A program made the position numbers and the translations under genes. DNA of 64,000 nt from assembly GCF_000585375.1 (NCBI RefSeq), contig NZ_KK073874.1, positions 3,472,001-3,536,000 on the forward strand. The letters run 5' to 3'. Under the pieces are notes generated by a model, which had not been told where the DNA came from, did no database searches, and saw only the letters and a list, made by a program, of their open reading frames with translations. Each line of letters starts with the position of its first letter. The stretch's first letter is position 1. The DNA is from Cryptosporangium arvum DSM 44712. GTDB lineage: Bacteria; Actinomycetota; Actinomycetes; Mycobacteriales; Cryptosporangiaceae. Shown here piece after piece: positions 107 to 64,000 of the stretch.

Positions 107-907
107 CTACGACAGCAGCGACCGGACCTCGGGCGGCCACCCGGACACGTCGTCGCCGTGGCGTCGGCGCAGGGCGAGCACGACGCGGTCGAGACCGAAC
201 GCCAGGCACGAGCTGTGCGCCGTACCGGCGTCGGCGTCGGCGATGCCGAACACCTCCCCGAAGTGTTCCTTGTGGTAGTTGACCGACGCGATCGCCTGCA
301 CGAGACCGTCGTCGACCTCGGCGGTGAACTCCGACTTGAGCCCCTGCGACCGTTGCGTCGACGCCAGCAGCACCCCGGTCCGGCCGAAGAACGGGTCGTT
401 GGCGGCGACGACGTTGATGCCGAGCCCCAGCTCCCGCAGCCATCCGGCGGCACCGGTCAGCGTGCGGTCGCGCCACTCCTCGACCGCGCCGGCCGGGCCG
501 AGGCACACCACTTCGTACATGCGGAACGACCGCAGCCGCCCGGTCTCGCTGGTCGCCTCGCCGCGGTAACACGCGGCCTCGACGCTGGCGACGACCGGCG
601 ACGCCAGCGCGCGGTCGGCGAACACGGGATAGAGGTGGTGGCAGGCGGCCGCGGTGAGCACGAGGTCGGTGGCGGCGACGGGCCCGCCCTGCGGTGCGCC
701 GTACACCGACCCCAGCAACTGCGGGAACGACTCCGGGTAACCCACCAGCTCGACGACGCGGCGGTCGATCACCGGTGGCGCGACGAAATGCTCCACGCAA
801 GGGCCGAAGCGCCGGTCGATACCCCTTCGCAACCCGTCGACCAGCTCGGCCTCGGACCGCGGCGTCAGCCGGACGCCGGGAGTGCCCAGCGTGCTGGACG
901 TCGTCAC
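107..907 (-). CDS. Amino acid:[carrier protein] ligase, class II aaRS-like
   Basis: This 266-aa protein resembles the catalytic core of an atypical seryl-tRNA synthetase without a tRNA-binding arm. The family (Bradyrhizobium Bll0957 type) activates a small amino acid, usually glycine or alanine, as adenylate and loads it on the phosphopantetheine of a carrier protein. Visible signs are a motif-2 FRMYE (about residues 128-132), a motif-3 FGLDR (237-241), and a Cys89/Glu132/Cys234 trio whose spacing fits the family's zinc ligands. The GTG start at 907 overlaps the stop of the flavoprotein gene (GTGA), so the two are translationally coupled. The protein is shorter than the roughly 300-330 aa known members. 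Amino acid specificity cannot be read; Gly, Ala or Ser are all possible. Its likely partner is the carrier protein at 2040-2297. Confidence 0.85.
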   Translation of the reverse strand: MTTSSTLGTPGVRLTPRSEAELVDGLRRGIDRRFGPCVEHFVAPPVIDRRVVELVGYPESFPQLLGSVYGAPQGGPVAATDLVLTAAACHHLYPVFADRALASPVVASVEAACYRGEATSETGRLRSFRMYEVVCLGPAGAVEEWRDRTLTGAAGWLRELGLGINVVAANDPFFGRTGVLLASTQRSQGLKSEFTAEVDDGLVQAIASVNYHKEHFGEVFGIADADAGTAHSSCLAFGLDRVVLALRRRHGDDVSGWPPEVRSLLS

Positions 908-2043
908 CGTGCGCCGCCGGACATCAGCAGCATCTGGGAGTTGGCCGCGACCAGGCGGCTGTTGCCGATCATCACCGGACCCGACAGCACGTCACGCATG
1001 ATGCGGGCGACGGAGTACGGGCCGGCCTCGCCGAACCCGGCCAGGCCGCAGACGCCGAGCGCGAGCCGGACGACGTCGACAGCGCCCTCGGACACGCCGA
1101 TCTTCAGGTCGTTGAGTTCGACGGTGAGCGCCAGGGTCGGCTCCTCGTCGCCGACGAGGACCGGGTCGGCGGCGAGCGTCGCCGCGGTCAGCTGCGCCTT
1201 GAGCCCGGCCAGCCGGACGTGCGCGAGGCCGAGGTTGGGGTTGTCCGCGACGGCGGGGCCGCGGCTCTTGGCCCGGCTGGCCCGGATCGCCCGGTCGACG
1301 GCCTCGGTCGCGAGCCCCACCCAGATGGCCGCCCACAGCAGGTGCGACATCGGCACCATCGTGCGGGCCGCGATGTCGCGGAACGGCACCGGGAGGATCT
1401 GGTCCTGGTCGAAGACCATGTCGAGGTGGAAGGCCGGGCTGCAGGTGCCGCGCATCCCCAGCGTGTTCCACGTGCCGGTCTGCTCCAGTGTGGTCTGTTC
1501 CCGGCTGACCAGCACGGAGACCTGGTTACCGGCCACCGCGCCCTCGTCGGCGCGCGCGGTCACCAGGTAACCCTGGGAGTGGGCGCCGTAGGACACCGCG
1601 CTGGCCTGCTTCACCAGCGTGTGCGATCCGCCCTCGCCACCGCCCACCCCGGCCCGGCTGCTGCGCAGGTCGCCGCCGATGCCCGGCTCGCTCGCCACCG
1701 ACGAGACCAGCCACTGCTCGTCGATCGACCGCTTCACCATCGCCGATTCGGGATGATGGCGGACCATGCAGGCGAGGTGGATCTGGTGCATCGCCCACAC
1801 CATCGCGGTCGCGCCGCAGGCGCGGGCGAGCCGGGTGGAGATCGTGACCAGCTCGGCCGGGTTCAGGCCCAGGCCACCCATCTCGACCGGCGCCGCGGCG
1901 TTGAGCAGGTTGCCTTCGCGCAGCGCGGCCACCGCCTCGGACGGGAAGCGGGCGTCGCGGTCGACCTCCGCCGCCGCCTCGGCGGCCCGGTCCGCGGCGT
2001 ACGCCACGGCTTTGTCGACGTCATCGGTCCAGCCGTTGTTCAT
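904..2043 (-). CDS. Acyl-CoA dehydrogenase-like flavoprotein acting on carrier-bound substrate
   Basis: This 379-aa protein has the acyl-CoA dehydrogenase fold. The SEPGIGGD stretch matches the usual TEPGxGSD FAD/substrate loop, followed by a beta domain and a C-terminal helical bundle. It probably oxidises the aminoacyl (or derived acyl) thioester held on the neighbouring carrier protein, as flavoproteins do in prolyl-to-pyrrolyl or aminomalonyl-ACP pathways. The C-terminal segment after the conserved Arg-Asp reads VLSGPVMIGNSRL where typical members have EGTxEI, so the usual catalytic Glu is absent and a Pro or Gly stands there. The ATG at 2043 overlaps the carrier protein's stop (ATGA). 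A longer in-frame reading would run into the carrier gene, so this start was chosen. Substrate and product are not known. Confidence 0.85.
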   Translation of the reverse strand: MNNGWTDDVDKAVAYAADRAAEAAAEVDRDARFPSEAVAALREGNLLNAAAPVEMGGLGLNPAELVTISTRLARACGATAMVWAMHQIHLACMVRHHPESAMVKRSIDEQWLVSSVASEPGIGGDLRSSRAGVGGGEGGSHTLVKQASAVSYGAHSQGYLVTARADEGAVAGNQVSVLVSREQTTLEQTGTWNTLGMRGTCSPAFHLDMVFDQDQILPVPFRDIAARTMVPMSHLLWAAIWVGLATEAVDRAIRASRAKSRGPAVADNPNLGLAHVRLAGLKAQLTAATLAADPVLVGDEEPTLALTVELNDLKIGVSEGAVDVVRLALGVCGLAGFGEAGPYSVARIMRDVLSGPVMIGNSRLVAANSQMLLMSGGAR

Positions 2044-2297
2044 CGGGTGACCCCTTCCCGGGACGCCACGACCGCGGAGACGGCGGCGGCGATGGCCTGG
2101 ATGCTGCCGAACGTGTCGCGGGTGAGCGCGTCCTCGCTGAACTGCAGGTCGAAGTGGTCCTCCAGCCGCACCATCACGTGGACGCTCGTCAACGAGTCCA
2201 TCCCGGCGGCCCACAGGTCCGCGTCGACGGGGAGCGTGTCGACGACACCGGCCAGCTTCGGCACGGTGCGCAGCACCGCCCTCACTTCCTCGTGCAT
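2040..2297 (-). CDS. Free acyl/aminoacyl carrier protein
   Basis: An 85-aa stand-alone carrier protein. The phosphopantetheine attachment site is GMDSLTS, with Ser35 as the expected modified residue, within an acidic four-helix carrier fold. A strong ribosome binding site sits just upstream. The next gene starts inside this gene's stop codon, and the ligase follows that, so this is the natural acceptor of the aminoacyl group and the shuttle between ligase, flavoprotein and acyltransferase. It is distinct from the FkbJ-like carrier at 10167-10457, which has NS rather than DS at the site. Identity as a carrier protein is secure; the cargo is inferred. Confidence 0.92.
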   Translation of the reverse strand: MHEEVRAVLRTVPKLAGVVDTLPVDADLWAAGMDSLTSVHVMVRLEDHFDLQFSEDALTRDTFGSIQAIAAAVSAVVASREGVTR

Positions 2298-2302
2298 GTC
2301 AC

Positions 2303-2311
2303 TTCCTCTCT
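2303..2311 (-). promoter_or_regulatory. Ribosome binding site of the carrier protein gene
   Basis: On the minus strand the sequence AGAGAGGAA lies 5 bases before the ATG at 2297. It is a strong Shine-Dalgarno match and fixes the carrier protein start. It falls in the 31-base gap after the acyltransferase stop. Confidence 0.7.
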
Positions 2312-2328
2312 GCGAGCACTGCGGATCC

Positions 2329-3525
2329 TCAGGCGGGCAGTGCCGCGAGTGAGGTTTTGATGCCGTCCAGCAGCCGGCCGCCGAGTCCGGCCATTCCGGG
2401 ACCGTCGTCGCCGCACAGCACGAGCTCGGTCCGTTTCGCGGTCTCGACGATCGTCAGCACCGGCATGACGTTGAGCCCGCACGTCGGCAGCACGTAGGCC
2501 GTGCTCGCGGCGAAGCCCCCGCCGCTGTACGCGGCGAGGTCGAGGAGCCCGAAGTGGGCCAGCGCGAACGCCGGCTGCGGCACTCCGCCCCGGGCCAGCA
2601 GGCCGTCCGCGGTGCGCACCATCGGCCGGAGCACGCCCATCGGCAACCGCCCGAACGCGTCCATCAGCCGCGGCCCGCCGAGCGTCCAGAGGTCCTGGTT
2701 CGCGGTCAGCGCCCGCTGCAGCTGCCGGTACACCTGCAGCCAGGTCGCGTCCTCGGCGGCGGACACCAGCACCGCTCCGGACAGGTTCGCGGTCGAGCGG
2801 ACGTCCGGTACGTGCCGGCGCAGGTCGATCGGGATCGTGAAGTAGCCGGTGCCGAGCGCGCACAGCCGGGTGAGCGCGACCGCGATCTTCGGCACGCTCG
2901 CCCAGTGCGGGGTCGGCAGCGTGCGGCGCAGGAAGAACGTGCCGCGCCGCTCCAGCGTCGCGCGGGCCCGCAGCGGCGGTGCCGAGGTCATCCGCGGTGG
3001 CGGCGGGCGTTCGCCGGGGCCGTGCGCGCGCAGTACGTCGGACATCGTCAGGTCGGAGACGGCCGGCTGCGGTTCCTCGCCACGCAGCGCGCGGAAGACC
3101 TCGCCGGCCCAGAGCAGCAGGCCCATGCCGTCCATGGCGGCGTGGTGGACCCGGAACACCAGGCCGGGGCGCGCGCCGGTCAGCTGCACCACCTCGCAGG
3201 TCGGCGCGCCGCATTGCCCGGACAGCGGGCGGAACATCGTGTCGAGGCCGTCGAACGTGTACCGGTCCAGGGTGTCGCCGTCGTGCACCCGGACGGCCGG
3301 TGGCGTCGTGCTGTCGACCCAGCGCCGGCCCCGGCGGGTCAGGCGCGCTCCCGGGCAGGCGTCCGACGCGGCCGCGACCGCCGCGGACAGCGCGCGCGGG
3401 TCGAGCGTCCCGGTGCCCTCGACGAACAGCTGGATGTACGTGTGGATGCCCGGTGGGTTGGCGAGCTGGACGCGCTCGGCGAGCGACATCTTCCGGGAGT
3501 AGGGCTTTCCAGCGACAGGCCGCAT
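2329..3525 (-). CDS. Stand-alone HHxxxDG acyltransferase (condensation domain / PapA type)
   Basis: About 398 aa from the ATG at 3525, which follows a GGGAG five bases away. The catalytic motif HHAAMDG lies near residues 127-133, the place it takes in PapA-type and wax-ester-synthase-like acyltransferases and in NRPS condensation domains. These enzymes move an acyl group from a carrier protein thioester onto an alcohol or amine. No adenylation or carrier domain is attached, and no clear DFGWG motif was found near the C terminus. An earlier in-frame ATG at 3600 would also be possible and would nearly abut the exporter gene stop. Position between the ABC exporter and the aminoacyl carrier cassette suggests that it transfers the carrier-bound aminoacyl unit to a polyketide hydroxyl or to an amine. 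This is inference. Confidence 0.75.
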   Translation of the reverse strand: MRPVAGKPYSRKMSLAERVQLANPPGIHTYIQLFVEGTGTLDPRALSAAVAAASDACPGARLTRRGRRWVDSTTPPAVRVHDGDTLDRYTFDGLDTMFRPLSGQCGAPTCEVVQLTGARPGLVFRVHHAAMDGMGLLLWAGEVFRALRGEEPQPAVSDLTMSDVLRAHGPGERPPPPRMTSAPPLRARATLERRGTFFLRRTLPTPHWASVPKIAVALTRLCALGTGYFTIPIDLRRHVPDVRSTANLSGAVLVSAAEDATWLQVYRQLQRALTANQDLWTLGGPRLMDAFGRLPMGVLRPMVRTADGLLARGGVPQPAFALAHFGLLDLAAYSGGGFAASTAYVLPTCGLNVMPVLTIVETAKRTELVLCGDDGPGMAGLGGRLLDGIKTSLAALPA

Positions 3526-3589
3526 GCCGGCTCCCGAGGATCTCGAGGAAACTGAACGCCATCGAAGCACCGGGTGCGGCGGGAAATCC

Positions 3590-5467
3590 CTAGCGTTCAT
3601 CTGCCCCGCCGTCTTCTTCGAGCGGCGCTGCCGTGCCCGTCGCGTACAGCCGGGCGTAGCGGCCACCGGCCGCGACCAGCTCGTTGTGCGCGCCGATCTC
3701 CACGATCCGGCCCGCGTCCATCACCACGATGACGTCGGCGTCGCGGATCGTGGAGAGCCGGTGCGCGACGACGAACGTGGTCCGCCCGGCTCGCAGCGAC
3801 CGCAGCGCCCGCTGGATCAGCACCTCGGTGCGGGTGTCGACCGAGCTGGTCGCCTCGTCCAGGATGAGGATCGCGGGGCGGGCCAGGTAGGCCCGCGCAA
3901 CCGTGACGAGCTGCTTCTCCCCGGCGCTGAGCGTCGTGTGCTCGTCGTCCAGCCGGGTGTCGTAACCGTCGGGCAGACCGCGCACGAACTGGTCGACGCA
4001 GGTCGCCTCGGCGGCGGTGACGACGTCGGCCCGCGAGGCGTCCGGCCGCCCGAACGCGATGTTCTCGGCCACCGTGCCGCGGGTGAGCCAGACGTCCTGG
4101 GAGACGAGCCCGATGCGCGAGCGCAGGTCGTCGCGGGTCAGGTCGCGGATGTCGGTGCCGTCGAGCAGGACGCGGCCGGCGGTGGGCTCGTAGAAGCGCA
4201 TCAACAGGTTGCCCAGCGTCGTCTTGCCCGCGCCGGTCGGCCCGACGATCGCGACCGTCTGCCCCGGTCGGGCCACCAGCGACAGCGACTCGATCAGCGG
4301 AGTGTCGGGGGAGTACCGGAACGCGATCCGGTCGAACTCCACCCGCCCGACGGTCGGGCCCGGCACGACCGGGGGCCACGGGTCCGGGCTCTGCTCCGGG
4401 GTGTCCAGCAGCTCGAAGACCCGCGCGGCCGACGCCAGGCCCGACTGCAGCTGCGCGGCGATCGCGGCGAGCTGCCCGACCGGCTGGTTGAACTGCCAGG
4501 CGAACTGGATGAACGCCTGCACGGAGCCGATCGACAGCGAGCCCGACGCCACCCGCAGCGCACCGACGACCGCGACGAGCACGTAGTTGAGGTTGCCGGC
4601 GAACGTCATCACCGGCTCGAGCGTGCCGGACAGGAAACGGGCCCGGGCCCCGGCGAGGCGCATCGCGTCGTTGTGCCGGTCGAACGCCTCCGCGGCCAGG
4701 TCACGGCGGTCGTAGCCGACGACGAGCGCGTGTCCGCTGTAGATGTCCTCGATGTGGGCGTTCAGCGCGCCGGTGGCCGCCCACTGCGCGTCGAACCGCG
4801 GCTGCGAGCGCTTGCTGATGAGCGTCATCACGGCGATCGACAGCGGCGTACCGGCGAGCACGAGGACGGCCAGCAGCGGCGAGAGCGCGAACATCACGGC
4901 GATCACCGCGACGATCGAGAACGCCGCGCCGATCAGCTGCCCGACGCCTTGCTGCACCACCTGCTGGAAGTTGTCGACGTCGTTGGTGACCCGGCTGAGC
5001 AGCTCACCCCGCGGGTGACCGTCGAAGTAGCTCAGCGGCAGCCGGGTGAGCTTGCGCGCGACGTCGCGGCGCAGCCCGGCGGCCACCCGCTGGACGATGC
5101 GCGCGGTCAGCCGGTCGCGGACCGCGGTGAGCACCGACGCGGCGACCATGAGCACGAGGGTCAGGCCGAGGAGCCGCCCGACGGCGGCGAGGTCGATGCC
5201 GGCGCCGGGAGCAAAATCCACTGTGGAGAGCACGGCGGCGAGGCTGTCGCGGTTTTGCGCGCGCAGCGCGGCGATCGCCTCCGCGCTGGTGGTACCGGAC
5301 GGCAGCCCGCGGCTGAGGTAACCGGCGACGACGAGGTCGGTTGCCCGCCCCATGAGCAGCGGGCCGACCAGGTTGAGCACGGCGCTGAGCAGCCCGAACG
5401 TGATGATGACCAGCACGGCGGGGCGGAACGGCCGCAGCATGCGCAGCAGACGCCGGGCTGGGCTCAT
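3590..5467 (-). CDS. ABC exporter half-transporter (subunit with the catalytic site)
   Basis: A 625-aa fusion of an N-terminal transmembrane domain (about residues 1-330, several hydrophobic helices) with an ATP-binding domain. Walker A is GPTGAGKTT (about residue 405), the signature is LSAGEKQ (about 511), Walker B is ILILDEAT with the catalytic Glu (about 535), and the switch His is in VVAHRLST (about 568). It overlaps the upstream half-transporter gene by four bases (ATGA), as expected for a heterodimer. The signature motif departs from LSGGQ while its own Walker B is intact, which fits a heterodimer with one degenerate site. Likely role is export of the cluster's polyketide and self-resistance. 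Confidence 0.92.
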   Translation of the reverse strand: MSPARRLLRMLRPFRPAVLVIITFGLLSAVLNLVGPLLMGRATDLVVAGYLSRGLPSGTTSAEAIAALRAQNRDSLAAVLSTVDFAPGAGIDLAAVGRLLGLTLVLMVAASVLTAVRDRLTARIVQRVAAGLRRDVARKLTRLPLSYFDGHPRGELLSRVTNDVDNFQQVVQQGVGQLIGAAFSIVAVIAVMFALSPLLAVLVLAGTPLSIAVMTLISKRSQPRFDAQWAATGALNAHIEDIYSGHALVVGYDRRDLAAEAFDRHNDAMRLAGARARFLSGTLEPVMTFAGNLNYVLVAVVGALRVASGSLSIGSVQAFIQFAWQFNQPVGQLAAIAAQLQSGLASAARVFELLDTPEQSPDPWPPVVPGPTVGRVEFDRIAFRYSPDTPLIESLSLVARPGQTVAIVGPTGAGKTTLGNLLMRFYEPTAGRVLLDGTDIRDLTRDDLRSRIGLVSQDVWLTRGTVAENIAFGRPDASRADVVTAAEATCVDQFVRGLPDGYDTRLDDEHTTLSAGEKQLVTVARAYLARPAILILDEATSSVDTRTEVLIQRALRSLRAGRTTFVVAHRLSTIRDADVIVVMDAGRIVEIGAHNELVAAGGRYARLYATGTAAPLEEDGGADER

Positions 5468-7206
5468 CGCGCCACCTGCGCGGTGAGCTGGGAGAGCGCG
5501 AGCTCGCGGTAGGGCGCACAGTCGCGCATCAGCTCGTGGTGGGTGCCGGTGCCGACCGCCCGGCCCTGCTCGAGCATGACGATCCGGTCAGCCCGGCTGA
5601 CCCGGCCGACCTGCTGGGTCACCAGGATCACGGTGGCGCCGTGCAGGTGCGGTGCCAGCGCGTCCTGCAACGCCTCGTTCGTCGTGTTGTCCAGCGCCGA
5701 GAAACAGTCGTCGAACAGGTAGACGCGGGGCCGGTGCAGCAGGGTGCGCGCGATGCCTAGGCGCTGCCGCTGGCCGCCGGAGAAGTTCGCGCCACCCTGG
5801 GAGACCGGCGCGTCCAGGCCCAGCGGCAGCCGCTCGACCTCGGCCAGGACCTGGGCGATCTCCAGCGCGCGCCACATGTCGTCGGCGGTCGCTTTCGGGT
5901 TGCCGAACCGCAGGTTGCTCGCCACCGTGCCGGCGAACAGGTACGGCCGCTGGGGCACCAGGCCGACCGCCGCGGCGACCGCGGACGGCTCGAGCTCACG
6001 CACGTCGACGCCGTCGAGCAGCACCGCGCCCGCGGTGGCGTCGTACTGCCGCGGTGCCAGGCCCAGCAGCGTCGACTTGCCGCTGCCGGTGCGGCCGAGC
6101 ACCGCCACCGTCTCGCCCGGCGCCGCGCACAGGTCGACCCCGTGCAAGGCCGGCCGGGCCGCCGCCGGGTAGCGGAACCCGACGCCGCGCAGCTCGAGGA
6201 CGGCACCGCGGGAGGCCGTCGGAGCCGGAGTGCGCGGGTGCGCGGGTGCCACCACGCTGGCGTGTGTCTCGAGCACCTCGGTGATCCGCTCGGCGCAGAC
6301 GTGCGCCCGCGGCGCGCTCAGGAACATCAGCGTGGCCATGATGACCGAGACCAGCACGAGGACCAGGTAGCCCAGGAACGCGGTGAGCGTGCCGGGTGCC
6401 ATCAGCCCGTCGTCGATGCGCAGCGCGCCGAACCACAGCAGCGCCACGGTGAAGCCGGTCGTGACGATCAGGATCACCGGGTACATCACGGCGACCAGCC
6501 GCCAGACCCGCAGGCTGACGTCGGCCAGGTCGTGGTTGGCGCGCTCGAACGACGACAGCTCGTGCTGGTCGCGCCGGTAGGCGCGGATCACCCGGACGCC
6601 GGTGATCTGGTCGCGCAGCATCCGGTTCAGCCGGTCGACGCCGGCCTGCAGCAGGTCGTGCAACCGGCTCAGGCGGCGCAGCGACACCACCACGACGACG
6701 CCGATCACCAGCACGAATCCCAGCACCATCAGCGCCAGCGCGCTGTCCTGCCCGAAGGCCAGCACCACCGCGCCCACGCACATGATCGGCGCGGTCACGG
6801 CGGCGCCCGCGGCCAGCTCGACGAGCGTCTGCACCTGCTGGACGTCGTTCACGGTGCGGGCGATCAGCGACGGCGCCCCGAAGCGGGCGACCTCCCGGCC
6901 GGAGTAGCTCAGCACCCGGTGGAAGACCGCCGCGCGCAGGTCGCGACCGATCGACATCGCCACCGTCGGCCCGAGGTACGCGGCACCGGCCGCGCACGCG
7001 AGCTGCCCGATCGCGACGAGCACCATCACGACGCCGAGCCGCCGGATGTAACCCGGGTCGCCCTTGATCAGCCCGTTGTCGACGACGGCCGCGTTGAGCG
7101 TCGGCAGCAGCAGCGAACCGGCCACCTGGCCGAGCTGGAGCACCACGAGCACGACCAGATGCCGGCGGTACGGCCGGGAGTAGCTTCGCAGCAGTCGGAT
7201 CAGCAC
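5464..7206 (-). CDS. ABC exporter half-transporter (subunit with the degenerate site)
   Basis: A 580-aa half-transporter and first gene of the minus-strand operon. The N-terminal membrane domain is followed by an ATPase with Walker A GRTGSGKST (about residue 370) and a good FSGGQRQ signature. Its Walker B ends in FDDCFSALD, with Asp where the catalytic Glu belongs, and the switch position reads TQQ instead of a His. These are the marks of the non-hydrolysing site in heterodimeric exporters such as TM287/288. It should pair with the 3590-5467 product. The GTG start at 7206 is preceded by AGGAG at 7215-7219, eight bases away. The promoter should lie in the 113-base divergent gap. Confidence 0.92.
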   Translation of the reverse strand: MLIRLLRSYSRPYRRHLVVLVVLQLGQVAGSLLLPTLNAAVVDNGLIKGDPGYIRRLGVVMVLVAIGQLACAAGAAYLGPTVAMSIGRDLRAAVFHRVLSYSGREVARFGAPSLIARTVNDVQQVQTLVELAAGAAVTAPIMCVGAVVLAFGQDSALALMVLGFVLVIGVVVVVSLRRLSRLHDLLQAGVDRLNRMLRDQITGVRVIRAYRRDQHELSSFERANHDLADVSLRVWRLVAVMYPVILIVTTGFTVALLWFGALRIDDGLMAPGTLTAFLGYLVLVLVSVIMATLMFLSAPRAHVCAERITEVLETHASVVAPAHPRTPAPTASRGAVLELRGVGFRYPAAARPALHGVDLCAAPGETVAVLGRTGSGKSTLLGLAPRQYDATAGAVLLDGVDVRELEPSAVAAAVGLVPQRPYLFAGTVASNLRFGNPKATADDMWRALEIAQVLAEVERLPLGLDAPVSQGGANFSGGQRQRLGIARTLLHRPRVYLFDDCFSALDNTTNEALQDALAPHLHGATVILVTQQVGRVSRADRIVMLEQGRAVGTGTHHELMRDCAPYRELALSQLTAQVAR

Positions 7207-7319: not shown

Positions 7320-7982
7320 ATGGCCGGACAACTCTCGATCACCCCGGAACTATCGGAGTACGTGCGACGCGTGTCGCTGCGCGAGGACGAGATCCTGCGC
7401 TCGCTGCGCGAGGAGACCGCGCTCCTCCCGATGGGCACCGCCATGCAGGTACCGGCCGAGGAGGGGCAGTTCCTCGCCTTCCTCGTCGGGCTCACCGGCG
7501 CGTCCACCGTCGTCGAAGTCGGCACGTTCACCGGGTACAGCACGCTGTGCATGGCCCGGGCGGTGCGCCCCGGTGGCCGGGTCATCACCTGTGACATCAG
7601 CCCGAAGTGGCCCGACATCGGCGCGCCCGCGTGGAAGCGCGCCGGCGTCGCGGACCGGATCGACCTGCGGATCGGCGAGGCCACCCGGACCCTCGCCGCG
7701 CTGCTCACCGAGCTGGGCCCCGGCTCCGTCGACCTCGTTTTCATCGACGCCGACAAGGCCGGCTACGCGCGGTACTACGAGGCGGCGCTGGCGCTGCTCG
7801 CGCCGGCCGGGCTCATCGTCGTCGACAACACGCTGTTCTTCGGCCGGGTCGTCGACCCGGCCGCGACCGACGTCGACACCCGGGCGATCCGGGAGTTCAA
7901 CGAGCTCGTGCGCGACGACCCGCGGGTCGAGCTGACCCTGCTCCCGACGGCCGACGGCATCACGCTGCTCCGTCGGGTGTGA
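7320..7982 (+). CDS. fkbG: SAM-dependent O-methyltransferase (FkbG-like, methoxymalonyl-ACP pathway)
   Basis: A 220-aa class I methyltransferase of the cation-dependent catechol/CCoA-OMT type. The SAM motif [11 protein letters not shown] lies at residues 65-75, and metal-binding acidic segments appear at FIDADKAGY (141-149) and [10 protein letters not shown] (167-176). FkbG-type enzymes methylate the 2-hydroxyl of hydroxymalonyl-ACP to give methoxymalonyl-ACP. The other four pathway genes lie directly beside it but on the opposite strand, ending 6 bases from its stop, so this gene has its own promoter. An alternative role in methylating the finished polyketide cannot be excluded, but the context favours the extender pathway. 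Confidence 0.85.
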
Positions 7983-7988
7983 ACTCCG

Positions 7989-9056
7989 TCAGCGAGCGGT
8001 CCCCGCGGGCTCCGGCGCCTCCAGCGTCATCGTGTCCGGCGGGGGCTGCTCCGCGGTGACCAGGTGCAGCCGCTGCAGCCCGTCCCCGGCGAAGCCGAGC
8101 GCGGCGCGGCAGGCGCAGTCGTCGTCGGTGAAACCGCTGAACCGGTAGGCGATCTCCATCATCCGGTTGCGCTCGGTGCGCCGGAAGTCGGCCAGGATGT
8201 GTGCACCGGCGCGCGCGGCCTGGTCGTCGAGCCAGCGCAGCAGCACCGCACCCGCGCCGAACGCGACCACCCGGCACGACGTCGCCAGCAGCTTCAAGTG
8301 CCACGCCGGGCCGCCGACCTCCATGAGTACGACGCCCACCGCGCCGTGCGGCCCGAACCGGTCGGCCATCGACACGACCAGCACCCGGTGCGCCGGATCG
8401 TCGAGCAGCGCCCGCAGCGCCTCGAGCGAATAGTGGACGCCGGTGGCGTTCATCTGGCTGGTGCGCAGCGTCAGCTCCTCGACCCGCAGGAGGTGCTCCT
8501 CGGTCGCGTGCTCGATGCGCATCACCAGGTCCAGCGAGCGGACGAAGTCGGCGTCCGGGCCGGTGTGCTCCTCGCGTGCGCTGTCCCGGCGGGCGGCGGC
8601 CCGGTACATGCCGCGGCGGTTGCGCGAGTCGGCGGTGACCACGGGCGGCGTGAGGTCGGGTAGCGCACCCAGCTCGGGGATCCGCGCCGCGTCGTAACAG
8701 CGGACGTCGGGCCGGTGGTACTCCACTTCGGCCCGTTCGGCCGGCTGGTCGTCGATGAACGCGATCGTCGACTCGGCGAAGCGGAGCTCCTCGGCGATCT
8801 GCCGGACCGACTCGGACTTGACCGACCAGCCGATCCGCGCGGCTACGAAGTAGTCGGCCACGCCGAGCTGTTCGAGCTTGGCCCAGGCGTGGTCGTGGTC
8901 GTTCTTGCTCGCCACCGCCTGCAGGATGCCGCGCGAGTCGAGCAGTTCGAGCAGGTGCCGGGCCTCGGCCGTGACCTGTACGTCGTCGCCCTCCAGCAGC
9001 GTGCCGTTCCAGAGGGTGTTGTCGAGGTCCCAGACCACACATTTCACGGTCTTCAT
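7989..9056 (-). CDS. fkbH: FkbH-like glyceryl-ACP synthase (HAD family)
   Basis: A 355-aa protein with an N-terminal HAD phosphatase-like domain bearing the DLDNT motif at residues 10-14 and a C-terminal GNAT-like part. FkbH proteins take 1,3-bisphosphoglycerate, remove phosphate and load the glyceryl group on a dedicated ACP, the first step to methoxymalonyl-ACP. The ATG at 9056 is two bases after the stop of the FkbI-like gene, and a longer frame to 9473 would overlap that gene deeply, so the short start was chosen. It is the last gene of the minus-strand operon 11303-7989. The same enzyme type also serves tetronate formation, but the FkbI, FkbJ, FkbK and methyltransferase partners point to methoxymalonate. 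Confidence 0.93.
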   Translation of the reverse strand: MKTVKCVVWDLDNTLWNGTLLEGDDVQVTAEARHLLELLDSRGILQAVASKNDHDHAWAKLEQLGVADYFVAARIGWSVKSESVRQIAEELRFAESTIAFIDDQPAERAEVEYHRPDVRCYDAARIPELGALPDLTPPVVTADSRNRRGMYRAAARRDSAREEHTGPDADFVRSLDLVMRIEHATEEHLLRVEELTLRTSQMNATGVHYSLEALRALLDDPAHRVLVVSMADRFGPHGAVGVVLMEVGGPAWHLKLLATSCRVVAFGAGAVLLRWLDDQAARAGAHILADFRRTERNRMMEIAYRFSGFTDDDCACRAALGFAGDGLQRLHLVTAEQPPPDTMTLEAPEPAGTAR

Positions 9057-9058
9057 CG

Positions 9059-10174
9059 TCACCGTCCTCGTGTCGTACCGGACACGGCGTGTTGGGCGAG
9101 CAGCAGCCGGCAGATCTCGTTCGTGCCTTCGATCAGCTCCATGAGCTTCGCGTCGCGGTAGGCGCGGGCGACCACGTGCCCGTCGCGCGCGGCCACCGAC
9201 CCGAGCACCTGCACGGCGTCGGCCGCGCAGCGCGCCGCCGACGTGGAGCTCACGTACTTGGCGACGACGGTGGCCATCACGAGCTCCGGCGACCGGTCGT
9301 CCCAGCAGCGGCTCGCGTGCTCGCACACCGCGGTGGCCGCGCGTTCGGCGGCCAGCAGATCGGCGAGGTGCCCGGCGACGAGCTGGTGCTCGGCCAGCGG
9401 CTTGCCGAACTGGTGCCGGCGCGCGGCGTGCGCGGACGCCTCGGTCAGGCACGCGCGCAGGATGCCGACGCACCCCCAGGCGACCGACATGCGGCCGTAG
9501 GCGAGCGCGGTGGTCACGAGCATCGCCAGCTGCTGGCCGCCGCCGAGCACGGCGTCGGCGGGCAGCCGTACCCCGTCGAGGCGCACGTCGGCATGCCCCG
9601 CGGCACGGCAGCCGCTCGGGTGGGCGACCGGTGTCACGGTCACGCCGGGCGCGTCCGTCGGCACGACCACCGCGGCGCCACCGTCACCGTGGCGACCGAC
9701 CACGACGATGAGGTCCGCGTAACGCGCGGCAGTGGTCCACACCTTCTGCCCGTCCACGACGACGCCGTCGCCGTCGGACGTGATCGTGGTCGCGATCGCC
9801 GACAGGTCGCTGCCGGCATCGGCCTCGCTGAACGCGACAGCGGCCAGATCACCGTCGACGAGCCGGGAGAGGTACCGCCGGCGTTGGCCGGCGTCGCCGA
9901 GCCGGCTGATCGTCCACGCGGCCATGCCCTGCGACGTCATGACGCTGCGCAGCGAGCTGCACAGCGCGCCGGCGTGGGCGGTGAGTGCCCCGTTGTCGAC
10001 GCTCGTCGCGGCCAGGCCGCCGTAGGCGGCGGGCACCTCGGCGCAGAGCACACCGCGCTTGCCGAGCGCGCGCAGCAGGTCCTCGGGGAGCAGCCCGGCG
10101 AGGTCCCACTCCGCGGCCGAGTCGCCGACACCGGCGTCGAGAACCGCGCGGGCGTCGGCGAGCCAGTCAGGCAT
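9059..10174 (-). CDS. fkbI: FkbI-like acyl-ACP dehydrogenase
   Basis: A 371-aa acyl-CoA dehydrogenase family flavoprotein. It has the FSEADAGSD loop at about residues 115-123 and the catalytic Glu349 in IEGTNEI, unlike the second family member at 904-2043. In methoxymalonyl-ACP synthesis FkbI works with FkbK to oxidise glyceryl-ACP to 2-hydroxymalonyl-ACP. It overlaps the carrier gene upstream by eight bases and is followed two bases later by the FkbH-like gene, so the operon is translationally coupled. Confidence 0.92.
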   Translation of the reverse strand: MPDWLADARAVLDAGVGDSAAEWDLAGLLPEDLLRALGKRGVLCAEVPAAYGGLAATSVDNGALTAHAGALCSSLRSVMTSQGMAAWTISRLGDAGQRRRYLSRLVDGDLAAVAFSEADAGSDLSAIATTITSDGDGVVVDGQKVWTTAARYADLIVVVGRHGDGGAAVVVPTDAPGVTVTPVAHPSGCRAAGHADVRLDGVRLPADAVLGGGQQLAMLVTTALAYGRMSVAWGCVGILRACLTEASAHAARRHQFGKPLAEHQLVAGHLADLLAAERAATAVCEHASRCWDDRSPELVMATVVAKYVSSTSAARCAADAVQVLGSVAARDGHVVARAYRDAKLMELIEGTNEICRLLLAQHAVSGTTRGR

Positions 10175-10457
10175 CGCCGCCGTCCGGCGCGGCGGACAGG
10201 CGCTGGACCAGCGCCGCCATCTGCGTGATCGTGCGGAAGTTGTCCAGCCGCAGGTCCGGGCCGACGATCGCGACGCCGTACGTCCCTTCGAGATGGACGA
10301 CGAGCTCCATCGCGAACATCGAGTTGACGAGCCCCGCCGCGAACAGGTCGGTGTCGTTCGGCACGGGGGTGTTGAGTCGCTCCCGCAGGTAGGCGCCGAG
10401 CTCCTGCTCGACGACGTCGGCGGAGACCCGTTCGGTCTGCTCCGGAACTGTGCTCAC
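10167..10457 (-). CDS. fkbJ: FkbJ-like acyl carrier protein for methoxymalonyl-ACP
   Basis: A 96-aa discrete carrier protein. The attachment site is GLVNSMFAMEL with Ser46, and the Asn before the Ser is unlike the DS of the modular PKS carriers in this window. It carries the glyceryl, hydroxymalonyl and methoxymalonyl intermediates and then delivers the extender to a PKS AT domain. It sits between the FkbK-like and FkbI-like genes, nine bases after the former's stop, and overlaps the latter by eight bases. Confidence 0.92.
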   Translation of the reverse strand: MSTVPEQTERVSADVVEQELGAYLRERLNTPVPNDTDLFAAGLVNSMFAMELVVHLEGTYGVAIVGPDLRLDNFRTITQMAALVQRLSAAPDGGDA

Positions 10458-10466
10458 GAAAGCCTC

Positions 10467-11303
10467 TCAGTACTCGTAGAAACCCTGACCTGACTTGCGC
10501 CCGAGGTGCCCGGCCGCGACCTTCTCCTCGAGCAGCTCGCACGGCCGGTAGCGATCGATGCCGGTCCGATCGGCGAGCGCCCGCAGCGCGTCGGCCAGGT
10601 TGTCCAGTCCGATGAGGTCGGCGGTGCGCAGGGGCCCGGTCGGGTGGCCGAGACACGCCTGCATCAGCTCGTCGACCGCCGCCGCCGACGTCACGCCCTC
10701 GCCCACGATGCGGGCGGCCTCGTTGATCATCGGGTGCAGCAGCCGGCTGGTGACGAAGCCGGGGGAGTCCCGCACGACGATGCCGCGCCGCCCCATCCGG
10801 GCCAGCAGCGCGGTGATCGTGTCCATCGCCGCGTCGCCGGTCGCGCTACCGCGGGCGACCTCCACCGTGGTGATCAGGTAGGCGGGGTTCATGAAGTGGA
10901 TCCCGACCAGTTCGTGCGGCCGGCCGACGGCCTTGGCCAGCTCGTCGATCGGGATGCCGGACGTGTTGGTCACCAGCGGTGTGCCCTCGTCCAGCCGCGC
11001 GCAGACGTCACCCAGCAGGGACGTCTTCACCTCGACGTCCTCGACGACGGCCTCGACCACCGCGACCGCGTTCCCGACGGCACCGCGGTCGGTGCTCGTG
11101 GTGAGGGCCGCGACCGCGCCCGGCACGGCCCCCATCAGCTGGGCGTGCCGCAGCTGTTGCCGGACCCGGTCCCGCGCGTCGGCGAGCACCTCGTCGGAGA
11201 CGTCGATGAGCGTCACCGGGATGCCGTGCGCGAGCGCGAGCGTGGTGATGCCCGTGCCCATGACGCCGGCGCCCAGGATCGCGAGACCACGCTCCTGTGT
11301 CAT
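10467..11303 (-). CDS. fkbK: FkbK-like 3-hydroxyacyl dehydrogenase
   Basis: A 278-aa NAD(P)-dependent dehydrogenase of the 3-hydroxybutyryl-CoA dehydrogenase family. The Rossmann motif GAGVMG is at residues 11-16, followed by the family's GIHFMNPAY and SPGFVTSR signatures. It oxidises the primary alcohol of glyceryl-ACP on the way to hydroxymalonyl-ACP. The start at 11303 is set by AGGGGAGGA six bases upstream; an earlier ATG at 11324 is unlikely because that RBS would lie inside the gene. It is the first gene of the methoxymalonyl operon. It is the only such dehydrogenase in the window and could in principle also serve the aminoacyl cassette. Confidence 0.92.
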   Translation of the reverse strand: MTQERGLAILGAGVMGTGITTLALAHGIPVTLIDVSDEVLADARDRVRQQLRHAQLMGAVPGAVAALTTSTDRGAVGNAVAVVEAVVEDVEVKTSLLGDVCARLDEGTPLVTNTSGIPIDELAKAVGRPHELVGIHFMNPAYLITTVEVARGSATGDAAMDTITALLARMGRRGIVVRDSPGFVTSRLLHPMINEAARIVGEGVTSAAAVDELMQACLGHPTGPLRTADLIGLDNLADALRALADRTGIDRYRPCELLEEKVAAGHLGRKSGQGFYEY

Positions 11304-11436
11304 CAGCAGTCCTCCCCTCGTCATCGCCGGCTCACGGTAACGCCGGTCCAGGCGTCCTGTTCCTAAGGTTTTTCCCGAACCGTCGTGCCCAGGATGTGGA
11401 GCCCGGACCAGTGCCCCGCCGAGATGGGTTGAGTGG
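11304..11436. promoter_or_regulatory. Divergent intergenic region between fkbK-like and PKS1
   Basis: The 133-base gap must hold the promoter of the methoxymalonyl operon (minus) and probably that of the PKS genes (plus). It includes a short AT-richer patch around 11362-11377 that stands out from the GC-rich surroundings. No clear -10/-35 elements or operator repeats were found by eye. The PKS1 ATG has only a weak ribosome binding match (a GAG three bases upstream). Confidence 0.45.
11310..11318 (-). promoter_or_regulatory. Ribosome binding site of the fkbK-like gene
   Basis: Minus-strand AGGGGAGGA lies six bases before the ATG at 11303. It is an excellent Shine-Dalgarno sequence and decides the start in favour of 11303 over the upstream in-frame ATG at 11324. 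Confidence 0.75.
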
Positions 11437-38937
<27,501 letters not shown>

Positions 38938-38940
38938 GTG

Positions 38941-41900
38941 ATGGGACAGAGCATGGGCGAGAACGGTCGGAAGGTGGTCGACGCACTGCGCGCCGCCGTG
39001 AAGGAGACCGAACGGCTACGCAGGCAGAACCGCAAACTCGTCGACGCGGCCACGGAGCCGATCGCCATCGTCGGGATGGGCTGTAAGTACCCCGGTGATG
39101 TCGCCTCGCCCGGCGACCTGTGGGAGCTGGTGCGTTCCGGCACGGACGCGATCTCGGGGTTCCCGATCGACCGCGGCTGGGACTTGGCCGCGCTGAGCAC
39201 CGGCGAGGTCGACGAGCGCGGCACCAGCATCAGCCAGCAGGGCGGGTTCCTGCGCTCGGTCGCCGACTTCGATCCCGGGTTCTTCGGGATCTCACCACGC
39301 GAGGCGCTGACGATGGACCCGCAGCAGCGGCTGCTGCTGGAGACGACCTGGGAGGCGATCGAGCGGGCCGGCCTCGACGCCGTCCGGCTGCGCGGCAGCC
39401 GGACCGGCGTGTTCGTGGGCACGAACGGCCAGGACTACGCCTACCTGCTGATCCGGTCCCTCGACGACGCCACCGGCGACATCGGTACCGGCATCGCCGC
39501 CAGCGCGACATCGGGCCGCCTCTCCTACAGCCTCGGGCTGGAAGGCCCGACGGTCACCGTCGACACGGCCTGCTCGTCGTCGCTCGTCGCGTTGCACCTC
39601 GCCGTCCAGGCGCTGCGCAACGACGAGTGCTCGCTGGCGCTCGCCGGCGGGGTCAACGTCATGTCGATCCCCGGAGCGCTCGTCGAGTTCAGCCGCCAGA
39701 ACGGGCTGGCGTCCGACGGCCGCTGCAAGGCCTATTCCGACGCCGCCGACGGCACCGGCTGGGCCGAGGGCGTCGGGATGCTCGTGCTGGAACGCCTCTC
39801 CGACGCCCAGCGGCTCGGCCACGACGTCCTCGCGGTGGTCCGCGGGTCGGCGGTCAACTCCGACGGCGCGTCCAACGGGCTCACCGCGCCCAACGGACCG
39901 GCGCAGCAGCGTGTCATCCGCACCGCGCTCGCCTCCGCCGGGCTCGACGTGTCCGACGTGGACGTCGTGGAGGGCCACGGCACCGGCACGGTGCTCGGCG
40001 ACCCGATCGAGGCCAACGCGCTGCTCGCCACGTACGGCCAGGGTCACCCGGCCGACCGTCCGGTCTGGCTCGGGTCGATCAAGTCGAACTTCGGTCACAC
40101 CCAGGCCGCGGCCGGTGTGGCCGGAGTGATCAAGATGGTGGAGGCGCTCCGGCACGCCGAGATCCCGCCGACCCTGCACGTCGGCGAGCCGTCGTCGCAC
40201 GTCGCGTGGGAGTCCGGGGCGGTGCGGCCGGTGACCGCGCGGATGCCGTGGCCGGAGCGGGACCGGCCGCGCCGGGCGGCCGTGTCGTCGTTCGGGATCA
40301 GCGGGACGAACGCGCACGTGATCCTCGAGCAGGCTCCGGCCGTGGAACCGGTGTCGGCGTCGGACGCGTTGGTGCCGTGGGTGGTGTCGGCGAAGTCCGC
40401 GGATGCGCTGGACGCGCAGGTGGCCCGGCTGCGTGACGTGTCGGGTTCGTCATTTGTCGACGTCGGGCACACGTTGACGCAGCGGTCGGTGTTCGAGCAC
40501 CGGGCCGTGCTGCTGGCTGACCCCGGCTCGAGCGAGGCCGTGAGCGTTGCGGCCGGGGTGGCTCGCGGTGGCACGGATGTCGGGGTGGTGTTCTCGGGGC
40601 AGGGGTCGCAGCGGTTGGGGATGGGCCGGGAGTTGTATGAGCGGTTCCCGGTGTTCGCGGATGCCCTGGACGAGGTGCTGGCGGGGTTCTCGGGTGCGGT
40701 GCGGGAGGTGATGTGGGGCGATGACTCGGGCGCGCTGGCGCGGACGGGGTTCGCGCAGCCGGCGTTGTTCGCGGTTGAGGTGGCGCTGTGGCGGCTGATC
40801 GAGTCGTTCGGGGTGCGGGCGTCGGTGGTGGCCGGGCATTCGATCGGTGAGATCGCGGCGGCGCATGTGGCCGGGGTGTTGTCGCTGGCGGATGCGTGTG
40901 TGCTGGTGTCGGCGCGGGCTTCGTTGATGGAGGCGCTGCCCGAGGGTGGGGTGATGGTGTCGGTGCGGGCGAGCGCTGACGTGGTCACGCCGTTGCTGAC
41001 CGAGGGCGTGTCGATCGCGGCCGTGAATACCCCGGGTTCGGTGGTGCTCTCCGGTGAGGAATCGGCCGTGGACGCGGTGGTCTCGGCGTTGGGTGCGAAG
41101 AGCTCCCGGCTGTCGGTGTCGCACGCGTTTCATTCGGCGTTGATGGATCCGATGCTGGAGCCGTTGACCGAAGTGGCTACCGGGTTGTCGCTGAGCAAGC
41201 CGACGATCCGGTTGTTGTCCGGTGTGACCGGGGCGGCGGTGGAGCAGTTGGAGCCGTCGTACTGGGCCGCGCAGGTGCGGGAGCCCGTGCGGTTCGCGGA
41301 CGTGGTCGCTGGGATGGACGTCGGTGTGATTCTGGAGGTCGGCCCGGACGGCGTGCTGACCGCGTTGATCGACCGGGCCGCCGTGGCGACGCTGCGCAAG
41401 GACCGCCCGGAGGTCGCGGCGCTGCTGACCGGGTTGGCCGGGCTGTTCGTGCGTGGGGTGCCGGTCGACTGGGCTCCCGCGTTCGCGGGTCTCGGTGCCC
41501 GCCGGGTCGATCTGCCGACCTACCCGTTCCAGCATGAACGCTTCTGGCCGAACCGGCTCGCCGCAGCCGGGGACGGTGGGGGCGACGGCTGGTGGTCCTG
41601 GGTGGAGTCCGAGGACCCCGCGGTGCTGGCCGCGCGGCTCGGCGTCGACGAAGAGGCCGTGGCCACCGTGCTGCCGGCGCTGGCGTCGTGGCGCCGCGGC
41701 GAGCGCGAGCGTTCGGAGATGGACGGCTGGCGGTTACGCGAGGTCTGGAAGCCGATCAGCGTCGGGACCAGTGCGCCGCCTGGGACCTGGCTCGTCGTCG
41801 TTCCGTCCGAGGTGCTTGACGAGGCCTGGGTCGGCGCGGTGTCGGGTGCGGTGAGTGCGGTGCGGTGGGACGTCGCGGAGCCGGACCGGGACGCGTGGGC

Positions 41901-44900
41901 GGCGCGGCTGCGTGAGTGGGGTACGGATTTCTCGGGTGTGGTGTCGCTGCTGCGTGATGTCGTGGCGTCCGCGACGTTGGTGCAGGCGTTGGGGGACGCC
42001 GGTGTCACTGCGCCGGTGTGGGCTCTGACCTGTGGTGCGGTCAGCGCGGCGCCCGGCGACGTGATCGAGGACGTGGATCAGGCGGCGATCTGGGGTTTCG
42101 GGCGGGTGGTCGCGCTGGAGCGTCCGGCCGGGTGGGGTGGCCTGGTCGACCTGCCACCGGACATCGACGCACAGGTGGCCCGCCGTCTCGCCGGAGTGCT
42201 CACCGGCGACGAGGACCAGGTCGCGATCCGGAGCCGGGGTGTGTTCGGTCGACGTCTGGTCCAGTCGGGCCCCGGACAGTCGTCGTGGGATCCGTCGGGC
42301 ACAGTGTTGATCACCGGTGGTACCGGTGCGCTCGGTGGTCAGGTCGCGGTGTGGCTGGCCGGGCGCGGCGCCGAGCGGATCGTGCTCGTGTCGCGGAGCG
42401 GCGATGCCGCCGAGGGTGTCGCTGAGCTGGTCGGCCGGATCGAGGCGAGCGGCGCGCGGGCCGAGGTGGTCGCGTGTGACGTGGCCGATCGGGACGCGGT
42501 GGCCGCGGTGCTCGATGGAATCCCCGATCTGACGGCGGTCGTGCACGCGGCCGGTGTGCTGGACGACGGGACCGTCGAGGGGCTGTCGGCGGAGCGGTTC
42601 GCGTCGGTGCTGCGGGCGAAGGCGTCGTCGGCAATTGTTTTGGACGAGTTGACCCGGGACCGGGACCTGGACGCGTTTGTGTTGTTTTCCTCGACGGCGG
42701 GCGCGGTCGGCAACCCGGGTCAGGCGAACTACGCGGCGGCGAACGCCGTGCTCGACGCGGTCGCCTACCGACGGCAGGCCGTCGGGTTACCGGCGACGTC
42801 GATCGCCTGGGGTGCCTGGGCCGGAGCCGGAATGGCGGCCCGGCTCGGCATGGCCGGAATGGATCCCGCGCTCGCGCTGACCGTGCTCGGCCAGGTCGCG
42901 ACCGCGGGCGCCCCGTACGTCGTCGTGGGCGACCTGCGGCGCCCGGGAATCCTCCGCGCGCTGCTCACGCTGCGCCCGGCACCCCTGCTGAGCGACCTGC
43001 CCGACGCCGCGGAGATCCTCGCCGACGTGCGGGCCGGGCAGGCGCGGCAGGAGGAGGCGGCGTCCGGTCTGCGCGCGACCCTCGCGGGCCTCGACCCGGC
43101 CGCGCGGGCCGCGTTGCTCGGCGAGACGGTCCGGGAACATGCCGCGGCCGTGCTCGGCCACACCGGCGCCGACCGCGTCGATCCGGAGCGGGCGTTCCGT
43201 GACGCGGGTTTCGATTCGTTGACGGCGGTGGAGCTGGCGACGCGGTTGTCGGTGGTGACCGGTCTGCGGTTGTCGAGCACGCTGGTTTTTGATCATCCGA
43301 CTCCGCAGGCGCTCGCGGCGCACCTTCTCGGTGAGCTCGGTTCCGGGCCGGGGGAGGTCCAGCCGTCGGTGCCGGTTGCGGTCGTCGATGAGCCGATCGT
43401 CATCGTCGGCATGGCGTGCCGGTTTCCCGGCGGGGTGCGGAATCCGCAGGATCTGTGGCGTCTGCTCGTGGACGGCGAGGACGCGATCGGACCGTTCCCG
43501 ACCGACCGCGGCTGGGACCTGGGTCTGCTCGCGGGCGGCGAGCGCGGGGGCAGCGCGACCGGCGTCGGCGGCTTTCTGGACGGGGCGGGCGACTTCGACG
43601 CCGGGTTCTTCGGTATCTCTCCGCGTGAGGCGCTGGCGATGGACCCGCAGCAGCGCGTGCTGCTCGAGGCGTCCTGGGAGGCGCTGGAGGACGCCGGCAT
43701 CGAGCCCGGTGGCCTGCGCGGTAGCCGTACCGGCGTCTTCATGGGCACGAACGGTCAGGACTACACGAGCCTGGTGCTCAACGCCGCTGAGGACCTCGAG
43801 GGCCACGCGGTGACCGGGCTCGCGGCGAGCGTGATCTCCGGGCGGGTCTCGTACATGTTCGGGCTCGAAGGTCCGTCGGTGACGGTGGATACGGCGTGTT
43901 CGTCGTCGCTTGTGGCGTTGCATTGGGCGGCGCAGGCGTTGCGTAGTGGTGAATGTGACCTGGCGCTGGCCGGTGGGGTCACGGTGTTGTCGACCGCGAT
44001 GAATTTCGCGGGTTTCAGCCGGCAGGGCGGCCTGGCTACGGACGGGCGTTGCAAGGCGTATGCCTCCGCTGCGGACGGTACTGGTTGGTCTGAGGGTGTC
44101 GGGGTGATCGCTGTGGAGCGGTTGTCCGACGCTCAGCGTCTCGGGCATCGGATCTTGGCCGTGGTGCGGGGTTCGGCGGTGAATTCCGATGGTGCGTCGA
44201 ATGGGTTGACGGCGCCGAATGGTCCGTCGCAGCAGCGGGTGATTCGGGCGGCGTTGGGTTCGGCGGGGCTCGCGCCGGGTGACGTGGATGTGGTGGAGGG
44301 ACACGGCACCGGCACGGTGTTGGGGGATCCGATCGAGGCGCAGGCGCTGTTGGCGACCTATGGCCAGGGTCGGGATACGCCGTTGTGGCTGGGTTCGATC
44401 AAGTCGAATCTGGGGCACACGCAGGCTGCCGCTGGGGTTGCCGGGCTGATCAAGATGGTGCTCGCGCTGCGTCACGGGGTTCTGCCTCGGACTCTGCATG
44501 TGGATTCGCCGTCCTCCCGGGTGGACTGGGAGTCCGGCGCGGTTCGTGTCCTCACCGAGGCGACGGACTGGCCCGACCTGGAGCGGCCGCGCCGGGCGGC
44601 CGTGTCGTCGTTCGGGATCAGCGGCACGAACGCGCACGTGATCCTCGAGCAGGCCGCGGCCGGTGAACCGGCGTCGGCGCCGGACGGGCTGGTGCCGTGG
44701 GTGGTGTCGGCGAAGTCGGTGGATGCGCTGGACGCGCAGGTGGAGCGGCTGCGGGCGCACCGCGGTGCCCGGTCTGTCGACGTCGGGTACACGTTGATGC
44801 AGCGGTCGGTGTTCGAGCATCGGGCCGTGGTGCTGGCCGGCGAGGATCTGGTGCGTGTGGCGAGCGGTGTGGCTCGGGCTGAGGCTGCGGTCGGGGTGGT

Positions 44901-49377: not shown

Positions 49378-49620
49378 CTCGGGCGCGCTGGCGCGGACGG
49401 GGTTCGCGCAGCCGGCGTTGTTCGCGGTTGAGGTGGCGCTGTGGCGGCTGATCGAGTCGTTCGGGGTGCGGGCGTCGGTGGTGGCCGGGCATTCGATCGG
49501 TGAGATCGCGGCGGCGCATGTGGCCGGGGTGTTGTCGCTGGCGGATGCGTGTGTGCTGGTGTCGGCGCGGGCTTCGTTGATGGAGGCGCTGCCCGAGGGT
49601 GGGGTGATGGTGTCGGTGCG
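49132..49620 (+). repeat. Near-identical AT repeat, copy in module 9 (with the inserted C)
   Basis: 489 bases, equal to 40480-40967 plus one C. This is the copy in which the PKS2 frame is broken. Confidence 0.95.
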
Positions 49621-53029: not shown

Positions 53030-53044
53030 CGCTTGCGAGACGAC

Positions 53045-53051
53045 AGGAAGG
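53045..53051 (+). promoter_or_regulatory. Ribosome binding site of PKS3
   Basis: AGGAAGG lies ten bases before the ATG at 53062, in the 32-base gap after PKS2. It fixes the PKS3 start; no promoter is evident in so short a gap. Confidence 0.65.
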
Positions 53052-53061
53052 TCCATCGGCG

Positions 53062-64000
<10,939 letters not shown>

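Follow-up and report, generated by a model that had tools for sequence, protein, structure and literature searches.

An operon of Cryptosporangium arvum joining a ligase-carrier-flavoprotein cassette to a condensation-type acyltransferase beside a giant type I polyketide synthase: a putative macrolide-tailoring unit

Genes at the locus

The window analysed in this work is a 64,000-bp stretch of the Cryptosporangium arvum DSM 44712 genome (G000:C1:3472001-3536000; the source genome is a single contig of 9,195,993 bases). It carries an operon coding for a class II aminoacyl-tRNA synthetase (aaRS)-like ligase (LIG), an acyl-CoA-dehydrogenase-fold flavoprotein (ACAD), a stand-alone carrier protein (ACP), a putative acyltransferase (ACT) and two halves of an ATP-binding cassette (ABC) exporter, next to the genes of a type I polyketide synthase (PKS) (Table 1). 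An earlier sequence-only reading, which had been made from the letters and the open reading frames (ORFs), described six minus-strand genes, most of them overlapping by four bases. The ORFs, their strand and their order are as it described, and four-base overlaps are present at three of the five junctions, namely LIG/ACAD, ACAD/ACP and ABC/ABC. ACP and ACT are separated by 31 bases. The start of ACT is uncertain, the ATG at 3600 giving an 11-base overlap with the ABC gene and the ATG at 3525 giving none.

Table 1 Features of the operon and of the neighbouring genes in the window
Feature	Position	Strand	Length	Matches and remarks
LIG, relative of class II aaRS-like amino acid:[carrier protein] ligases	107..907	-	266 aa	
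ACAD, acyl-CoA-dehydrogenase-fold flavoprotein of the LIG cassette	904..2043	-	379 aa	Pfam Acyl-CoA_dh_N/_1
ACP, stand-alone carrier protein	2040..2297	-	85 aa	GMDSL site; PP-binding, E 5.2e-9
ACT, putative condensation-superfamily acyltransferase	2329..3525 (start possibly 3600)	-	~398 aa	VHHAAMDG; alignments to relatives
ABC exporter half, permease-ATPase	3590..5467	-	625 aa	Pfam ABC_membrane 1.8e-48, ABC_tran 1.9e-30
ABC exporter half, permease-ATPase	5464..7206	-	580 aa	Pfam ABC_membrane, ABC_tran
O-methyltransferase, FkbG-like (neighbour, presumed methoxymalonyl-ACP set)	7320..7982	+		Methyltransf_3 1.7e-60
FkbH-like HAD protein (neighbour)	7989..9062 (start approximate)	-		ORF; 62-63% to G218
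FkbI-like acyl-ACP dehydrogenase (neighbour)	9059..10174	-		keeps the usual Glu; served as Glu control
FkbJ-like ACP (neighbour)	10167..10457	-		PP-binding
FkbK-like 3-hydroxyacyl-CoA dehydrogenase (neighbour)	10467..11309	-		3HCDH_N/3HCDH
Type I PKS genes	11437..64000: 11437-38937; 38938-49377 with 49199-53029 (frame break); 53062 to beyond the window	+		KS/AT/ACP motifs

Two modules joined at a single locus

The comparison of gene neighbourhoods proposed in the sequence-only reading separated the operon into two modules, ACP-ACAD-LIG and ACT, which were found joined only in the window. LIG loci were collected by scanning contigs with the ligase alignment, and the best 80 of 160 confirmed stretches were kept, 55 of them spanning at least 20 kb; the genes in the fetched loci were called with an in-house ORF script. 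ACT was present in none of these 80 loci, either with the window ACT as the query or when the search was repeated with three ACT queries (tblastn). Among 298 genomes of the order, LIG (E<=1e-20) was found in 36 and ACT (E<=1e-8) in eight, the window's genome being included in both counts and being the only one to possess both. The class contributed seven ACT genomes among 394, three of them already seen, and the genus of G624 contributed 33 among 372, two of them already seen. The ACT genomes other than the window's total 42; a LIG relative occurs in 11 of them, on another contig or at a distance, with the closest spacing of about 28 kb in G921. Across the 80 LIG loci and the 42 other ACT genomes, the pairing of ACT with ACP-ACAD-LIG was thus found only at this locus.

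The ligase, the carrier protein and the flavoprotein

LIG is most similar to Bll0957 (PDB 4h2w, E 7.3e-49 over residues 21-265; 3mey, E 2.5e-47), in line with the Bll0957-type grouping proposed earlier. It matches NCBIfam PRK07080 with an E-value of 9.9e-63 and 212 bits, which is under the equivalog cut-off of 357, so it is called here a relative and not a member. Residues C89, E132 and C234, which we take to occupy the zinc-ligand positions, are invariant in all six aligned ligases. Judging by homology over the catalytic core and by these three residues, LIG is a Bll0957-like ligase predicted to aminoacylate its partner ACP, which passes NCBIfam PRK07081 with 80.3 bits (cut-off 72).

ACAD has the acyl-CoA dehydrogenase fold. 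The catalytic Glu at the position of MCAD-376 is replaced in all 24 cassette ACADs compared, by Ile in 20 and by Val in four, while it is kept in the two controls, the FkbI-like proteins of the window and of G218. At the IVD-254 position Glu is absent as well, as judged by eye only. Lacking the catalytic Glu, ACAD is not expected to be a canonical α,β-desaturating dehydrogenase. Its profile matches in PDB include 3m9v, 4kcf, 4zxv and 3mxl, all within the top 10 of 51, which we take to be the amino-sugar N-oxygenases KijD3 and DnmZ and a nitrososynthase.

The cassette in other genomes

An ACAD relative with more than 250 aligned residues is present in 57 of the 80 LIG loci, and in 48 of these 57 the two genes lie on the same strand not more than 500 bases apart. 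The LIG and ACAD distance matrices are correlated (r 0.974, n=58; r 0.93 after thinning, n=24, with 0 of 2000 permutations as high), which is owed in part to shared organism history. ACP-ACAD-LIG is a widespread, portable cassette, and the gene upstream of ACP varies from one cassette to another. A strong type I ketosynthase (KS) lies near LIG in only one of the 80 loci (L087, 59-60%); weaker KS-like matches were seen in L118 (39% over 478 residues) and in L075, L081 and L088 (31-34%, short).

The LIG-linked relative nearest to the window is L070, with 68, 64 and 72% identity for LIG, ACAD and ACP, respectively, and a Pfam Condensation protein encoded immediately upstream of ACP. In L073, L077, L083 and L087 the transferase position before ACP-ACAD-LIG is occupied by a BtrH-like protein; Pfam BtrH_N stays below threshold for the L065 reading of this protein (E 0.043) and gives no match for L073. 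L078, situated within a nonribosomal peptide synthetase (NRPS) cluster, has a condensation-type protein after LIG. In L074-L076, L079-L081, L086 and L088, which come from Actinokineospora and relatives, LIG is accompanied by at least two free-standing condensation-type proteins and by one that, by eye, resembles a dehydrogenase E1 subunit; the fetched DNA of these loci gave no ACAD match. The proteobacterial cassettes L111 and L092 are followed by a MetA-like gene and, in L111, also by a MetY-like one (by eye).

A 2010 note describes a ligase, an ACP and a redox enzyme together with an adjacent protein for which amide formation on a sugar is predicted, and guesses at a monooxygenation; according to the same note, loading of the carrier by a paralogous ligase has been published (PMC2922099). 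No natural product built by a ligase-carrier-flavoprotein cassette was found in the open-access literature, most subscription papers being outside the scope of the search.

The acyltransferase and its relatives

ACT has no match in Pfam, NCBIfam or PHROGs, and Pfam Condensation (PF00668) does not match it at E<=1. An hhalign comparison of the ACT family with 20 condensation domains kept HHxxxDG in register across 367 columns and gave a probability of 95.4 (P 1.7e-8), as against 0.2 and 0.1 for two unrelated controls; an earlier and smaller comparison was weaker (probability 57, P 1.1e-4). The single-sequence structure model was unusable (mean pLDDT 34.4). From the motif and the full-length profile similarity, ACT is, at the sequence level, a remote relative of the condensation-domain superfamily. 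The sequence-only reading had called it a PapA-like HHxxxDG acyltransferase: the motif is there (VHHAAMDG), and its H and D are invariant in all eight aligned sequences, but the name is not the best one for a divergent condensation-domain relative with kin in lipstatin-like and PKS clusters. A profile search of PDB sequences gave no PapA match.

The neighbourhoods of ACT were fetched for 31 of the 42 genomes; some of the ACT matches carry one in-frame TGA. In 25 of the 31, the ORF that holds ACT also has an adenylation match (BLAST), and all five fused proteins given to Pfam also possess a carrier domain (PP-binding). ACT is unfused in five (L057, L061, L160, L220 and L234), and L233 is cut by the contig end. 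The window ACT ORF ends at 2329 with no AMP-binding or PP-binding match, and so it is not an LstE-type protein with consecutive ACT, adenylation and carrier domains (ACT-A-T). A lipstatin-like gene set (KASIII, AMP-ligase and dehydrogenase) is present in 15 of the 31 neighbourhoods, eight of which also contain a formyltransferase-like gene; the lst names and functions, including that of LstE, are our presumptive assignments. Type I PKS genes occur in eight of the 31 neighbourhoods (in L055 the KS lies in the adjacent DNA), KS matches of 28-31% in L160, L220 and L234 having been left out of the count. LstAB is described in the literature (PMC12141560).

A tree of 32 ACT sequences places the window copy in a clade of 14 (support 100/98) with PKS-type proteins, separate from the lipstatin type, although the exact position of this copy is uncertain owing to its long terminal branch (1.32). 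All 13 other members of the clade are fused (ACT and adenylation), and eight of them have a type I PKS in the fetched or adjacent DNA. The fetched DNA of the remaining five (L221, L223, L224, L226 and L230) contains no type I KS. The gene order in G218 is FkbK-J-I-H, an opposed O-methyltransferase, an oxygenase-like gene, ACT-A-T and then the PKS, the O-methyltransferase beside ACT being 68% identical to that of the window.

An adenylation code DLTKVAE[VI]G and an asparagine-oxygenase-like gene accompany ACT-A-T in five of the eight PKS-linked neighbourhoods (L055, L157, L215, L216 and L217); the oxygenase name and the Asn-like reading of the code are our assumptions, the code having been read at nine chosen positions with the tenth letter (K) assumed by the script, and L231 and L232 did not align. 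The products of these five clusters are possibly hydroxyasparaginyl polyketide esters, going by their gene content, and no such compound was evident in the few papers found by a literature search, judged by title and abstract.

The polyketide synthase and the exporter

The macrolide-type PKS reported in the sequence-only reading is present: its genes start at 11437 and continue to about 164.3 kb (window-based coordinates), with 31 KS motifs after one spurious pattern match (ETAQSA) had been dropped. A KSQ loading domain (DTGQSS), additional to the 31, is located in the gene starting at 72522, and as the PKS starts with KSQ, an amino starter is not needed. A thioesterase motif is found at the end of gene 53062-70920. 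The five genes at 7320-11309 were given FkbG/H/I/J/K names, presumably forming a methoxymalonyl-ACP set. The acyltransferase (AT) domain at 49024-49669 is split over two frames (a paralogue aligned by tblastn in frame 2 up to 49317 and in frame 3 from 49223), which is either a real break or a sequencing error. A second break of a PKS ORF lies outside the window (G000:C1, about 3613.9-3614.3 kb), where ORF 116067-141914 ends after the AT motif and the next large PKS ORF starts at 142246 (window-based coordinates).

The AT motif classes are HAFH, YASH, FAAH (five), YPSH (three) and one HASH. The unusual FAAH and YPSH classes, of which one methoxymalonyl set accounts for just one, would suit a role of LIG, ACAD and ACP in supplying an amino-substituted extender of the aminomalonyl type to the PKS, with ACT doing another task, and the matches of LIG to serine--tRNA ligase models would agree with it. 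This alternative, raised already in the sequence-only reading, has become improbable: none of the six genes codes for a hydroxyacyl dehydrogenase of its own for seryl-ACP, the FkbK-like one fitting the methoxymalonyl set, no strong type I KS lies near 79 of the 80 LIG loci, where an extender would be useless, and ACT is left unexplained.

The same machinery may serve another acceptor, with ACT making an amide on an amino sugar of the macrolide. Such a sugar is likely, as two glycosyltransferase-like genes, a GDP-mannose-dehydratase-like gene and a DegT-like aminotransferase gene were recognized by eye farther out, along with genes for a P450, a thioesterase and a phosphopantetheinyl transferase; condensation enzymes, moreover, mostly form amides. 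The 2010 note likewise predicts ligation to the amino group of a cell-surface sugar for a related cassette (PMC2922099). On the other side stand the best-known ACT relatives, those of the lipstatin type, in which the amino acid is, as we understand it, attached as an ester, and an amide is considered unlikely here.

The ABC exporter family is common and ordinary. It is found in 164 of the 298 genomes of the order (E<=1e-130; about 47-56% identity in the rows shown), and a second copy exists in the window's own genome; the special coupling to export suggested in the sequence-only reading is not supported.

Proposed pathway

On balance we favour the reading that the operon is a tailoring unit attaching an amino-acid-derived acyl group to the macrolide of the adjacent PKS. 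LIG would form an aminoacyl-AMP and load onto ACP the amino acid, probably a small one such as glycine or alanine, as in the Bll0957 group. ACAD would then oxidise the carrier-bound residue; with the base Glu missing, this oxidation may involve the amino nitrogen or the C-N bond instead of being an ordinary α,β-desaturation. ACT, by homology, would esterify a hydroxyl of the macrolide or of its sugar with the group carried by ACP, and the ABC pair might export the product. The idea that an amino acid or an oxidised form of it is put onto the polyketide had been voiced in the sequence-only reading and is favoured by the comparison with the ACT relatives, the ester appearing likelier. A narrower version, in which LIG replaced an NRPS adenylation domain, the base-less ACAD makes an N-oxidised (imino, oxime or nitro) acyl group and ACT esterifies it to the macrolide, is put forward tentatively and is rather doubtful as a whole. 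The simplest history would be a replacement, by ACP-ACAD-LIG, of the adenylation and carrier domains that are present in the ACT relatives.

Two observations weigh against a tailoring role. The operon is located at the edge of the cluster, and PKS genes are seldom found near LIG cassettes, as the single strong KS among 80 loci indicates, a distribution which the sequence-only reading had itself named as contrary to its proposal. Both would suit an operon working outside the PKS pathway, on a separate small molecule or in the decoration of a cell-surface sugar, the latter being predicted for the rhizobial cassette in the 2010 note (PMC2922099). Nevertheless, eight of the 13 other members of the ACT clade lie beside type I PKS genes and G218 repeats the order of FkbK-J-I-H, methyltransferase and ACT, which makes a function outside the pathway quite unlikely. 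As the ACT relatives recur beside type I PKS genes, the scarcity of PKS genes around LIG is taken to mean that the cassette is portable and not that it is idle here.

What is new in the proposed tailoring unit is that one operon joins two separable modules, that the relatives of its transferase carry fused amino-acid-activating domains and are found repeatedly next to PKS genes, and that its flavoprotein is devoid of the usual base. As the cassette adjoins a transferase whose relatives indicate the expected reaction, the donor, the oxidation and the acceptor can be tested with three small proteins. If true, the proposal would clearly exemplify the substitution of an adenylation domain by a class II aaRS-like enzyme, one fused enzyme doing in the related clusters the job assigned here to separate proteins.

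Comparison with known systems

The Bll0957-kind ligases (PDB 3mey and 4h2w) share with LIG the class II core, a partner ACP in the operon, the C/E/C residues and the common ACAD-LIG linkage; the window LIG differs in its sub-equivalog score and in its linkage to ACT and a giant PKS, which here take the place of the rhizobial neighbours. The amino-sugar N-oxygenases, presumably KijD3, DnmZ and the nitrososynthase, are similar to ACAD in that it matches them in the PDB sequence-profile search. Among the carrier-tethered aminoacyl dehydrogenases ColB1 and CaeB1, the latter is described as a flavoprotein desaturating carrier-bound cysteine with E372 proposed as the base (PMC8149447), whereas none of the 24 cassette ACADs has a Glu at the aligned site. 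The LstE-type ACT-adenylation-carrier proteins share a full-length homologous ACT domain with the invariant H and D and, in G218, the order of the neighbouring genes, but the window ACT has no adenylation or carrier domain in its polypeptide and is accompanied instead by a class II aaRS-like ligase, a separate ACP and a flavoprotein.

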